From Pseudomonas orientalis (GTDB taxonomy: Bacteria > Pseudomonadota > Gammaproteobacteria > Pseudomonadales > Pseudomonadaceae): a stretch of DNA of 64,000 bases. The position numbers and the translations under genes were made by a program. Below are positions 60,505 to 63,863 of the stretch, piece by piece. The DNA lies in NCBI RefSeq assembly GCF_002934065.1, contig NZ_CP018049.1, positions 1,424,501 to 1,488,500 on the forward strand, in the 5' to 3' direction. A model generated the notes under the pieces. It worked only from the letters and a program-made list of their open reading frames with translations. It was not told where the DNA came from and did no database searches. Positions within the stretch are counted from its first letter, which is position 1. Each line of letters starts with the position of its first letter.

Positions 60505-61419
60505 ATGAGCGAAATGGACGATCTGGCGGCTTTCGCCGTATTGATCGAAGCCGGCAGTTTCACCCTGGCGGCCGAGCAACTGGGGTGCAGCAAGGGGCAA
60601 TTGTCCAAGCGGATCAGCCAGTTGGAAGCGCAGTTCGGCGTGGTGCTGCTGCATCGCACCACTCGCAAGCTGAGCCTTACTGCGGCGGGCGCGGTGTTGC
60701 TGCCCCAGGCACAAGCGCTGGTGGTGCAGGTGGAACGGGCGCGTCAGGCACTGGCACGGCTTAAGGATGACTTGGCCGGGCCGGTGCGTATGACGGTTCC
60801 GGTTTCATTGGGAGAAACATTCTTCGATGGCTTGTTGCTGGAGTTTTCCAAGCAATACCCCCAGGTGCAGATCGAACTGGAACTGAACAACGGCTATCGA
60901 GACCTGGCACGGGACGGATTCGATCTGGGCGTGCGCTCGGGGGCCATCGAGAATGAGCGTCTGGTGGTCAAGCCTCTGCTGGCCTGGCACGAGATGACCT
61001 GCGCCAGCCCGGCTTATCTGCAACAGCATGGCGAACCGCTGTGCCCGGCGGATCTGGCGGGCCACACCTGTTTGCTCAACAGTCACTACAGCGGCCGCGA
61101 GGAATGGCTGTATCACCAGCGGCATGAGCTTCTGCGTGTGCGCGTGAGTGGCACCTTCGCTTCCAACCACTACAACCTGTTGAAGAAGGCCGCATTGGTG
61201 GGCGCCGGTATCGCGCGGCTGCCGTCGTACCTGCTGCCGGCGGAATTGGCTGACGGTCGATTATGCTGGCTGTTGCGTGACTATCAGACGCGCAGCCAGC
61301 CGATGTACCTGGTTCATCCCTATCAAGGTGGCCTGCCGCGCCGCACCCAGGTACTGGCCGACTACCTGGTGGACTGGTTCAAGCGCAGCGGTGCAACCCT
61401 GGATCGCCTTCAGCGGTAG
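60505..61419 (+). CDS. LysR-type regulator next to the SDR and bufferin genes
   Basis: From ATG 60505 the product is 304 residues. It has the LysR helix-turn-helix (FTLAAEQLGCSKGQLSKRISQLE) and an effector domain of the AraC-like PBP2 CrgA type. It is divergent from the SDR gene and its last 10 bases overlap the end of the DoxX gene, which is on the other strand. It more likely controls the SDR than the bufferin genes, whose promoter lies 2.5 kb away. An upstream in-frame start at 60424 adds 27 unlikely residues. Confidence 0.85.
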   Translation: MSEMDDLAAFAVLIEAGSFTLAAEQLGCSKGQLSKRISQLEAQFGVVLLHRTTRKLSLTAAGAVLLPQAQALVVQVERARQALARLKDDLAGPVRMTVPVSLGETFFDGLLLEFSKQYPQVQIELELNNGYRDLARDGFDLGVRSGAIENERLVVKPLLAWHEMTCASPAYLQQHGEPLCPADLAGHTCLLNSHYSGREEWLYHQRHELLRVRVSGTFASNHYNLLKKAALVGAGIARLPSYLLPAELADGRLCWLLRDYQTRSQPMYLVHPYQGGLPRRTQVLADYLVDWFKRSGATLDRLQR

Positions 61420-61895
61420 TGCCGAGCGATCCAGTGGTCGATGGATAACCGGCCCGGGCCCCTGGCCACCAACAGTAATAACAGCGCAATCCAGGTGCCA
61501 TGGGTGGGGTAGGCGTCCGGGTAGACAAACAACTGAATGGTCAGGGTCATGCCGATCAAGGCAAGGGCCGAGAATCGCGTGGCCAATCCCAGCAGGATCA
61601 GCACCGGGAAAAAGTGCTCGGCAAATGCCGCCAGGTGCGCGGCGACTTCGGGGGACAACAGCGGGACATGATATTCGCTGCGAAACAGTGGCAAGGTCGA
61701 GGCAGCAAGTCTGGGTTCGCCGAGTTCGAAGGTGCCATTGATCAGGTCGATGGTAAAGCCTTCGACCTTGGTTTGCCCCGACTTCCAGAACACCGCCGCG
61801 ATGGAGAAACGGGCGATAAAAGCGATCAGGCTGTAAGGGGTTTTTTCGAGAAGGGCTATGGCCTGTTTCAGCAGGCCGGCAGCGGAACTGTTCAT
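61410..61895 (-). CDS. DoxX family membrane protein (BufD-like)
   Basis: A 161-residue inner-membrane protein of the DoxX family, with four predicted membrane segments (for example FFPVLILLGLATRFSALALIG). It is the last gene of the four-gene operon. DoxX-like proteins accompany DUF692/DUF2063 genes in bufferin (bufABCD) and gold-induced (gig) operons. A role in transport or membrane redox of the modified peptide is inferred. Its start overlaps bufC by 4 bases. Confidence 0.82.
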   Translation of the reverse strand: MNSSAAGLLKQAIALLEKTPYSLIAFIARFSIAAVFWKSGQTKVEGFTIDLINGTFELGEPRLAASTLPLFRSEYHVPLLSPEVAAHLAAFAEHFFPVLILLGLATRFSALALIGMTLTIQLFVYPDAYPTHGTWIALLLLLVARGPGRLSIDHWIARHYR

Positions 61896-62668
61896 GGCGA
61901 TACCTTTTGTTCCAGGTGTAAGTGAGCGATGGCGTCGTGCCTGATCAACAGCGTCAGGCAGCGATGCAGGTCGAATTCGGAGGAGGCCTGCAAGGCATGC
62001 TCCACCGCCATTTCCAGCCCCGTGCCCTGGTTCAGGCAGTTGATAAAGGCCACCGAGCCGCTGTCGATGGCGAAAGTCTTGACCGCCAGCCCGTGGCGCA
62101 ACACCAATGCGTTCTGCGCAGGCCAGGGGTTGAAATCAGCGAGACCGCCGTCAGTCTGGTGCGCGGCCCATATCGCCACCACCGCATGGGCAGAGCGCAA
62201 GGTGGCAAGCGATGGATGCAGTTGCAGGCTTGACTGCCCGAGGTTGGCCTGGCCCTGAAGGTGCTGAAGAATATGCTGCTGGCACAGCGCCGGCGTGTCG
62301 GCTGCGTGATAGGCACGCACCCGCAGGCGCTCCAGTCGTGCGACATCCGCCAGGTAAGGCACGCTGTCGGCCGGTTCGAATACCTGAATAAAATCGGCCA
62401 ATCGGCTGCCGTACTCGTTGATCAGCGGGCTGGCAGGCGGGTTGGCCTGGACGAAAAGGCCGGCCATGGCGCGAAAGAACTCATCGCCCACCAGTTGCAA
62501 CGTCACCGGATAACTGGCCGCCAAGGCATTGATCAGCGAGCCATGCACATTGTTGCGATACACCGCAAAGCGGCTGGCGGGGTCGGCGCCGTTGCTGCTG
62601 AACAGGCCATCCGGGCAGCCACCGTGCGCCGCGAGCAGGGCATCGGCAAACGCGCTCTGGACACTCAT
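61892..62668 (-). CDS. DUF2063 protein, RiPP maturation partner (BufC-like)
   Basis: From ATG 62668 the product is 258 residues with the DUF2063 N-terminal region (FAVYRNNVHGSLINALAASYPVTLQLVGDEFF) followed by a second, less conserved domain. DUF2063 proteins are partners of DUF692 oxidases and are proposed to recruit the precursor peptide. Starting at 62668 gives a 4-base overlap with bufB, while an in-frame start at 62692 lies further inside it. No metal-binding motif is visible. Confidence 0.86.
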   Translation of the reverse strand: MSVQSAFADALLAAHGGCPDGLFSSNGADPASRFAVYRNNVHGSLINALAASYPVTLQLVGDEFFRAMAGLFVQANPPASPLINEYGSRLADFIQVFEPADSVPYLADVARLERLRVRAYHAADTPALCQQHILQHLQGQANLGQSSLQLHPSLATLRSAHAVVAIWAAHQTDGGLADFNPWPAQNALVLRHGLAVKTFAIDSGSVAFINCLNQGTGLEMAVEHALQASSEFDLHRCLTLLIRHDAIAHLHLEQKVSP

Positions 62669-63543
62669 GACATCACCCGCGACAGATGCCATTCGGCTTG
62701 CCGGGCCTCGGCGTGCAGCACGCTGAAGGCCGGCACCCGGTTATCGCGCTCGATCAGTGTGGCGACCGGCCCCGTACGTTCGAGCACCTGTTCGTAGAGT
62801 CGCCACACGGCATCATCGACCGGCGCACCGTGATCATCGATGAGCAGTCGGTCGCCCAGGCTGTCGGTGTCTTCGGCAAAGCCGGCCAGGTGTACCTCGC
62901 CGACGGCATGCAAAGGCAAGGCATCGATGTAGGTCAGCGCATCACGCTGATGATTGATGCACGACACGTAGACGTTATTCACGTCCAGCAGCAAACCGCA
63001 GCCGGTGCGCCGAACGATCTCGCTGATGAAGTCGGTTTCGTCCAGGGTGGAGCGCTGGAACTGCACATAAGTCGACGGGTTCTCCAGCAGCATCGGCCGC
63101 TTGAGCGTGCTTTGCAGCTGGTCTATGTGCTCGCATACCCGAGCCAGCGCTTGCGCATCGTAGGCCAGGGGCAGCAGGTCATTGAGAAATACCGGGCCGT
63201 GGCTGGACCAGGCCAGGTGTTCGGAAAATGCGTGGGGTTGATAGCGATCGATCAGCCTGGCCAACCTCGCCAGGTGCTGAGGGTTCAGTGGACTTTCGCC
63301 GCCGATGGAGAGGCCCACGCCATGCAGTGACAGTGGGTAGTGCTCGCGGACCAAGCCCAGGTGGTGGTGAAAAGGCCCGCCGGCAACCATGTAGTTTTCG
63401 GCATGCACTTCGAAGAAACCGACGTCGGGGCGGGTCTCAAGCACGTGCTGGATGTGCTCGGTCTTCAGTCCCAGCCCGGCCCTGTGAGGGAGGCCGGGCA
63501 CCTGAGCCGGTGAGACCGTGGGGGAGAGTGAAAGCGTCATCAT
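62665..63543 (-). CDS. DUF692 multinuclear iron oxidase (BufB-like MNIO)
   Basis: A 292-residue TIM-barrel protein of the MNIO family (DUF692), non-heme multi-iron enzymes that oxidise cysteines of RiPP precursors, as in MbnB. Metal-ligand-like residues stand in FFEVHAENYM, PLSLHGVGLSIGG, FSEHLAWS, LLENPSTYV, LLDVNNVYVS, GEVHLAG, LIDDHGAPV and TLIERD. GAGGA lies just before the ATG. It is 23 bases after the precursor gene. Modification of cysteines in that peptide to oxazole-type rings is the expected reaction, from studies of bufferins. Confidence 0.9.
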   Translation of the reverse strand: MMTLSLSPTVSPAQVPGLPHRAGLGLKTEHIQHVLETRPDVGFFEVHAENYMVAGGPFHHHLGLVREHYPLSLHGVGLSIGGESPLNPQHLARLARLIDRYQPHAFSEHLAWSSHGPVFLNDLLPLAYDAQALARVCEHIDQLQSTLKRPMLLENPSTYVQFQRSTLDETDFISEIVRRTGCGLLLDVNNVYVSCINHQRDALTYIDALPLHAVGEVHLAGFAEDTDSLGDRLLIDDHGAPVDDAVWRLYEQVLERTGPVATLIERDNRVPAFSVLHAEARQAEWHLSRVMS

Positions 63544-63566
63544 CAGTCCTCAGGTTTTTTTTGGAT

Positions 63567-63863
63567 TCAGGACTTGGCGGTAAAGGCCGCTTCCTGACCG
63601 AAACCGGTTGGCGAGGTGGAGCTTGGGGTCTTGAGGCACGTACCGGCTGGGACCAGTTTCCAGGCGTTGGCCTGGTCTTTGGTTTTCGAGGTGCCGGCGC
63701 AGGAAGTGCCGGCGCCTGCGGCGCAGTCGTTCTTGCCGGCTTCGGCGATGCCGAAGCATTTCTGCATGTCGTCGGCGGCATGGGCGGTGGTGGCGAGGGC
63801 AGACAGGCTCAGAGCCGAGCCGAGGGCCATTACGAGGGCGGCGGCGGACAGCTTGGTGGTCAT
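63567..63863 (-). CDS. DUF2282 RiPP precursor peptide (bufferin, BufA-like)
   Basis: A 98-residue secreted small protein. Residues 1-29 are a signal peptide ending AHA. The mature part has four cysteines: Cys36 in KCFGIAEAGKNDC, Cys47 in the same run, Cys55 in SCAGTS and Cys76 in GTCLKT. This spacing is the DUF2282 pattern. In described bufferins the middle cysteines are modified by the MNIO enzyme and bind copper. GGAG precedes the ATG by 7 bases. It is the first gene of the operon with bufB, bufC and the DoxX gene. Confidence 0.88.
   Translation of the reverse strand: MTTKLSAAALVMALGSALSLSALATTAHAADDMQKCFGIAEAGKNDCAAGAGTSCAGTSKTKDQANAWKLVPAGTCLKTPSSTSPTGFGQEAAFTAKS

Follow-up and report, generated by a model that had tools for sequence, protein, structure and literature searches.

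Bufferins are reported to act in copper stress (PMC12452194), and in Caulobacter both bufferin operons are described as members of the sigmaF-NrsF regulon, with the promoter GTAACC-N16-CGAA (PMC3511200). In Pseudomonas, the accessible text of a 2021 eLife study of P. fluorescens (PMC8719888) gives the biosynthetic gene cluster Pep1 as DUF2282-DUF692-DUF2063-DoxX and names it the cluster most strongly correlated with suppression of Streptomyces scabies. A DUF692-associated module for a ribosomally synthesized and post-translationally modified peptide (RiPP) in P. aeruginosa is reported to be expressed with NaOCl (PMC9023270). No sigma factor for Pseudomonas bufferins was named in the open-access literature searched. 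Here we describe bufABCD, an operon in a 64,000-nucleotide stretch of the Pseudomonas orientalis chromosome (the window; C1:1424501-1488500 of genome G000, a single contig of 5,986,236 bases). The operon is a further member of the known bufferin family, and its novelty lies in its control. From sequence comparison, we consider it likely that Buf1-type bufABCD and a Buf2-type operon of the same chromosome are switched on together, under thiol-reactive stress, by one extracytoplasmic function (ECF) sigma factor with a zinc-finger anti-sigma factor.

Sigma factors of this kind have been described in other genera, as far as the accessible text of those reports goes. In Neisseria meningitidis, sigmaE and its zinc-binding anti-sigma (ZAS) protein MseR govern a regulon in which sigmaE drives its own DoxX-containing operon and msrAB (PMC2893595, PMC3240639). 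RpoE2-HrsE of Haemophilus influenzae, studied under HOCl, controls msrAB and affects a DoxX/COG3767/UPF0276/DUF2063 cluster (PMC7907618). The hypochlorite regulon of BcrS-AbcS (ECF16) in Brucella includes BcrX, a methionine-rich MXKDX peptide (PMC8315932).

The bufA promoter reads TGTAAC-N17-CTCTAGT. An alignment of the DNA ahead of bufA at 42 syntenic loci, including that of the window (L003), showed two short boxes and the ribosome-binding site to be conserved and the rest to be variable. TGTAAC-N17-CTC[TA]AG occurred in 39 of the 42; the other three have a spacer one base shorter (L026), TGTAAT (L052), or GGTAGC (L014). The same two boxes precede bufA2 of G000, and TGTAAC-N17-CTCNAGT is matched exactly at two sites of the 5.99-Mb chromosome, one before bufABCD and one before the Buf2-type operon. 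Its three one-mismatch matches all lie inside unrelated open reading frames (ORFs), and the backwards pattern, used as a control, gave 30 matches with up to one mismatch. Because the pattern is found only at these two genome sites, one sigma factor is predicted for both bufferin operons. Across a genus sample of 149 genomes, TGTAAC-N17-CTCTAGT occurred at 79 sites in 56 genomes, versus 18 sites for the backwards pattern. Among 29 motif loci fetched from genomes other than G000, 28 are followed by bufA or bufA2, in nearly every case no more than 65 bases away, and the remaining one (L111) has a methionine-rich peptide gene downstream. A promoter like that of the Caulobacter sigmaF-NrsF regulon, TGTAACC-N15-GCGAA, was seen at some other Pseudomonas Buf1 loci, namely, L007, L009, L010, L012, L013, L015, L020, and L025.

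The 20 Sigma70_r2 matches of G000 were screened for candidate ECF factors. An ECF gene beside type-III-secretion-like genes (L143) and those we take to be FecI-like were set aside. The candidate is a gene at C1:4319117-4319728, distant from bufABCD, with Sigma70_r2 and r4_2 domains, followed by a gene for a 77-amino-acid zinc-finger anti-sigma factor (zf-HC2; NCBIfam antisigmaE 64.8 versus a cut-off of 50). A further ECF, which we take to be RpoT-like (C1:3685898-3686401), was tried as the reader of the promoter and rejected, as it is present in only 46 of the 56 motif genomes and absent from 10. Judging from its neighbors, the candidate is presumably the ortholog of PA3285. A review, in its accessible part, places PA3285 and Neisseria RpoE together in ECF293. 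NrsF gave no match in G000 at an E value of 0.001, with a Caulobacter control genome positive, and was over its cut-off in none of the 56 motif genomes. SigF-NrsF control was rejected on the lack of an NrsF match in G000 and on the −10 element, which is CTCTAG, not CGAA.

The candidate sigma gene is present in 55 of the 56 motif genomes versus 91 of 149 overall, counts that ignore kinship. It is also found in 59 of the 60 genomes that carry a DUF2282 match at the liv site described below. Among the 91 genomes with a DUF2282 match, 72 have the sigma gene, 18 have NrsF only (in one of them, G085, as a partial 30.8-bit match), and one, G035, an assembly of 530 contigs, has neither. In some genomes, such as G014, G126, G145, G102, and G009, NrsF and a DUF2282 match are no more than about 3 kb apart. 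The exact motif is lacking in 36 of the 91 sigma genomes, and 19 of them lack DUF2282. As to autoregulation, no promoter motif was found in L141 outside the coding sequence of the candidate sigma itself.

Relatives of the candidate were also found beside genes for peptides of the type modified by multinuclear nonheme iron-dependent oxidases (MNIOs). A class-wide scan of 369 genomes returned 17 further sigma homologs of at least 155 bits, the next scoring 84, and a ZAS-like match adjoins all 17. Six of them have an MNIO-type precursor alongside (L194, L195, L200, L203, L209, and L210), and TGTAAC-N17-[CG]TCT stands ahead of the precursor in all of these except L195. In 18 stretches totaling 204 kb, among them the weaker L211, this pattern occurred at nine sites, three of them in sigma coding sequence and one ahead of another gene; 60 two-base-block shuffles of the same stretches averaged 0.4 sites and never had more than 2. 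A scan of named genomes yielded 494 loci, and the best 80 were kept. The two surveys overlap (L217 is the same locus as L209, and L233 and L238, at least, duplicate loci of the class scan). Motif matches within the 3' end of sigma genes (L203, L205, L209, and most of L212-L222) are coding and were excluded as promoters.

Among these best 80 of 494 loci, 79 have a ZAS-like match and 19 a precursor, preceded by TGTAAC-N17-[CG]TCT in 16 cases and by TGTAAC-N17-GTC in three. For example, Pseudomonas sp. BMS12 (L263) and P. fluvialis (L281) have the orthologous sigma locus with the same fabH-like neighbor (sigma 76.5% and 77.9% identical, respectively), and there precursor, MNIO, and DoxX matches lie under TGTAAC-N17-GTCTAGTG, nearly the promoter of the window. 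Three more Pseudomonas stretches (L265, L269, and L284) hold a precursor and an MNIO under TGTAAC-N17-GTC[AC]A. At the other 28 of the 33 Pseudomonas or Atopomonas sigma loci in this set, no precursor match was present.

At thirteen Methylophaga-type loci of the same set (L212-L217, L219-L224, and L226), the sigma/anti-sigma pair adjoins an EGKCG precursor to which DoxX, MsrP, and MsrQ matches are joined, and in L209 both MsrP and MsrQ score over their NCBIfam cut-offs. These loci are a direct genomic link of MNIO-type peptides with methionine sulfoxide repair.

The chromosomal slot of bufABCD has a second kind of occupant. In G007, G089, and G096 (L144, L145, and L146), all of which have the candidate sigma gene, the site between livF and the LysR gene holds, in place of bufABCD, a single peptide gene behind TGTAAC-N17-CTCTAG. 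In L146 the LysR ORF is not listed and a longer overlapping frame takes its place. The peptides, of 82 to 86 amino acids, have a high content of Met, Lys, and Asp and a signal-like N terminus that by eye resembles that of BufA; the one from L145 had no match in Pfam or NCBIfam. A cysteine-based modified peptide and a methionine-rich sacrificial peptide appear to interchange at one slot behind the same promoter. We give an even chance to the wider proposal that includes this exchange, namely, that an oxidant-responsive ECF sigma/zinc-finger anti-sigma pair runs a Pseudomonas bufferin regulon, with Buf1 and Buf2 here and EGKCG-type RiPPs in other species. The exchange ties bufferins to hypochlorite defense and is a reason to consider oxidants beside copper and gold.

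Other explanations of the conserved boxes were weighed against shared ECF control. Since known bufferins act in copper stress (PMC12452194), bufABCD might be an ordinary copper-stress operon under a copper regulator or a housekeeping promoter, with boxes that are not a sigma site. This is rather unlikely, because the spacing of the boxes is fixed in 39 of 42 loci, because they are common to two unrelated precursor families, and because in other genera they are found again next to a single sigma family. In addition, a crude scan of L003 1300-4200 found no sigma-70-like promoter, although CueR and CopR sites were not searched for. The surroundings could also suggest control by the neighboring LysR regulator, whose gene is adjacent and convergent, or readthrough from livKHMGF, as livF is encoded on the same strand, 232 bases upstream. 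Either is extremely improbable. By eye, ORFs like LysR and like a short-chain dehydrogenase/reductase (SDR) still follow livF at four fetched sites that have no bufABCD (L155, L159, L160, and L163), which marks the LysR/SDR pair as independent of the operon. Readthrough would have to pass an inverted repeat, with arms of 46 bases, that separates livF from the promoter, and the gap from livF to bufA reaches 1.4 to 3.4 kb in L069, L072, and L073.

That the boxes form an ECF promoter read by a different sigma, such as SigX or a SigF-like factor working without NrsF, is decidedly unlikely, but the case for it has several parts. The ECF at L083, presumably SigX, is present in G000, and the co-occurrence test covered only two of the ECFs of this genome. 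ECF16 (SigF/BcrS) promoters, given as (T/C)GTAAC-N17-CGAA in the accessible text, have the same −35 element TGTAAC, and the literature searched yielded no precise SigX consensus, as far as those sources could be consulted. Against such a reader stand a −10 element that is not CGAA, the absence of NrsF from G000 and of any over-cut-off match from the 56 motif genomes, and the 10 motif genomes in which the RpoT-like ECF is missing. Furthermore, orthologs of the candidate sigma adjoin precursors that carry the TGTAAC-N17-GTCTAGTG promoter.

Several points weigh against the preferred interpretation, in which the candidate sigma serves both bufferin operons. The regulatory evidence is wholly comparative, and the co-occurrence of sigma and motif was counted without regard to kinship. 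G035, in 530 contigs, has the motif and DUF2282 with no sigma match, while the exact motif is missing, in part without explanation, from 36 of the 91 genomes that have the sigma gene. The −10 element CTCTAG is one base off the GTCTA of other genera, no motif stands ahead of the sigma operon itself, and a precursor adjoins only 5 of the 33 Pseudomonas or Atopomonas sigma loci among the best 80 of 494. The least secure step is the oxidant signal, since expression of meningococcal sigmaE is reported to be unaltered by oxidative stimuli (PMC2893595) and PA3285 is predicted to be under the iron-responsive PvdS (PMC8999054), both as stated in the accessible text.

According to the proposal, the candidate sigma (C1:4319117-4319728) would read TGTAAC-N17-CTCTAGT once the zinc-finger anti-sigma lets go of it on thiol-reactive stress, e.g., hypochlorous acid or excess copper. 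BufB with BufC would then convert C47 and C55 of BufA to thiooxazoles, C36 and C76 would form a disulfide, and the exported peptide could hold copper or absorb oxidant in the periplasm, with BufD in a supporting redox role. The assignment of cysteines follows the rule given for Buf1 peptides by Antoine et al. 2025 (PMC12452194, accessible text), in which the central cysteines become thiooxazoles and the outer two a disulfide. By analogy with that work, the BufA product is likely to be a modified, metal-binding peptide. A thiol-reactive-stress switch that makes periplasmic bufferins is a possible function, with copper, gold, or hypochlorous acid as triggers. Since both the promoter and the comparison across the genus favor an ECF sigma with a zinc-finger anti-sigma, an oxidant may serve as inducer just as well as copper or gold. 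If so, bufferins would be part of periplasmic defense against oxidants as well as copper, and the predicted sigma factor, its strict promoter pattern, and its two predicted target operons make a testable proposal.

The first-pass annotation had recognized a bufferin operon from four linked minus-strand genes for a four-cysteine DUF2282 peptide, a DUF692 MNIO, a DUF2063 protein, and a DoxX protein. All four are present, each above its Pfam cut-off (Table 1), and every feature open to test here supports a Buf1-type bufferin operon. The 4-base overlaps also claimed hold in part: ATGA joins bufC to bufD (61895-61892) and bufB to bufC (62668-62665, provided that bufC starts at 62668 and not at the upstream ATG 62692), but 23 bases separate bufA from bufB. 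At the far end, bufD shares 10 bases with the convergent LysR gene.

Table 1. Features of the bufABCD locus, in window coordinates
Feature	Position	Strand	Basis or detail
bufABCD operon	61410-63863	−	gene order bufA, bufB, bufC, bufD
Predicted ECF-type promoter of bufABCD	63917..63946	−	−35 TGTAAC 63946-63941, 17-base spacer, −10 CTCTAG 63923-63918
bufA ribosome-binding site GGAG	63871..63874	−	sequence; GGAG conserved in upstream alignment
bufA, Buf1 (DUF2282) precursor, 98 aa	63567..63863	−	Pfam PF10048 76.3 bits (cut-off 22.4)
bufB, MNIO (DUF692) bufferin maturase, 292 aa	62665..63543	−	PF05114 and NCBIfam BufB; second ATG at 63540
bufC, DUF2063 partner, 258 aa from the ATG overlapping the bufB stop	61892..62668	−	PF09836
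bufD, DoxX-family membrane protein, 161 aa	61410..61895	−	PF07681 56.4 bits (cut-off 23.6)

The four cysteines of BufA are C36, C47, C55, and C76, and their pattern recurs in all 42 syntenic BufA sequences by a looser regular expression and in 40 by a stricter one. The N terminus, read by eye, is hydrophobic and signal-peptide-like, ending in AHA-A. As expected of a Buf1-type peptide, BufA falls below the cut-off of the NCBIfam BufA2 model (22.6 versus 60). BufB scores 355.6 bits against MbnB_TglH_ChrH (PF05114; cut-off 25) and 390.2 against the NCBIfam BufB model (cut-off 310), and it matches the solved DUF692 structures 3bww (E value, 9.5e-39), 8hci (1.2e-17), and MbnB 7dz9 (7.7e-13). In its alignment (114 rows, duplicates included), 19 H/D/E/N/C positions show conservation of 97% or more, among them H74, H109, E154, D187, H218, D236, H238, and E265; these positions presumably include the iron ligands. 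BufC, scored as a 266-amino-acid version, reached 90.9 bits for DUF2063 (PF09836; cut-off 27.2). BufC and BufD score below the cut-offs of HvfC (37.5 versus 142) and HvfX (45.7 versus 80), respectively, and are therefore relatives, not members, of those equivalogs. No solved structure matched BufC at an E value of 0.001, so its likeness to the DUF2063 structure NGO1945 comes from Pfam.

DUF2282 was above the cut-off in 91 of the 149 genomes, at 108 places among the matches listed. In 60 of the 91, livF is followed on the same strand by a match no more than 6 kb away (no livF was found in G048). The LysR and SDR genes occur in the same order in 27 of 28 chosen loci of at least 7.5 kb that hold livF and bufABCD, L052 having no SDR. 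The inverted repeat that separates livF from the bufA promoter (window 63981-64000 and beyond; L003 3981-4075) has a REP-type look, its arms being 89% complementary around a 3-base loop.

One further MNIO match in G000, 44% identical, lies within the Buf2 operon (L004 7383-9391, minus strand), whose precursor passes NCBIfam BufA2 (95.8 versus 60) and whose enzyme passes BufB (375.1 versus 310). By eye, its surroundings (L004 4517-11334, about C1 5938516-5945333) include methyltransferase-like and cardiolipin-synthase-like ORFs on one side, a flank like that of the Pep2 cluster (PMC8719888), and a P-type-ATPase-like ORF on the other. Two further arrangements were seen in other genomes. In L055 and L056 an in-frame cytochrome-c-like sequence follows DUF2282, and L056 apparently also has sulfatase-modifying-like sequence; DUF2282 fusions of this kind are described in PMC12452194 (accessible text). 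L057-L063 hold a third, Pep4-like Pseudomonas arrangement of DUF2282 and DoxX followed by Buf2-like precursor, MNIO, and DUF2063 matches. No TGTAAC box was found in the 140 bases ahead of their DUF2282 gene, so their control is probably different.

Among described clusters, Pep1 of P. fluorescens has the same four domains in the same order and in the same genus, a likeness drawn from its domain description and not from sequence; the accessible text does not discuss a promoter or regulator for it. The suggestion that the role of such genes is little studied in fluorescent Pseudomonas needs qualifying, as PMC8719888 already lists this gene set in its accessible text. That text leaves open the role of Pep1 and Pep2 in potato-pathogen inhibition, and shared ECF control, if true, would suggest an inducing condition for both. 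Caulobacter CC3254-CC3257 also resembles bufABCD, with precursor, MNIO, DUF2063, and DoxX in the order ABCD, four cysteines, and a −35 GTAAC (PMC12452194 and PMC3511200, accessible text). Unlike the sigmaF-NrsF regulon and its GTAACC-N16-CGAA promoter, the system here has no NrsF match in G000 and a −10 of CTCTAG.

With Brucella BcrS-AbcS, our system shares the −35 TGTAAC, the spacing, and a methionine-rich MXKDX-type target like the peptide that stands in place of bufABCD in three Pseudomonas genomes; it differs in that BcrS has a DUF1109-type anti-sigma and a −10 of CGAA, and the accessible text mentions no MNIO operon. Neisseria sigmaE-MseR, as described in the accessible text, is likewise an ECF sigma with a small ZAS anti-sigma that controls a DoxX operon, and its promoter, GTMAGBWTT, a spacer of 12 to 13, and CGTCTAAH, amounts to GTMA-N19/20-TCTA versus GTAA-N19-TCTA here. 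There, however, sigma and anti-sigma are encoded inside the operon, msrAB is controlled as well, and oxidative stimuli do not induce the system. Haemophilus RpoE2-HrsE, again from the accessible text, is an ECF sigma with a ZAS peptide whose affected cluster is encoded elsewhere, although the precursor in that cluster is COG3767, not DUF2282. Control of bufABCD is predicted to be a variant of these systems, in which a Neisseria/Haemophilus-type sigma factor from another locus serves both bufferin operons through one strict promoter.

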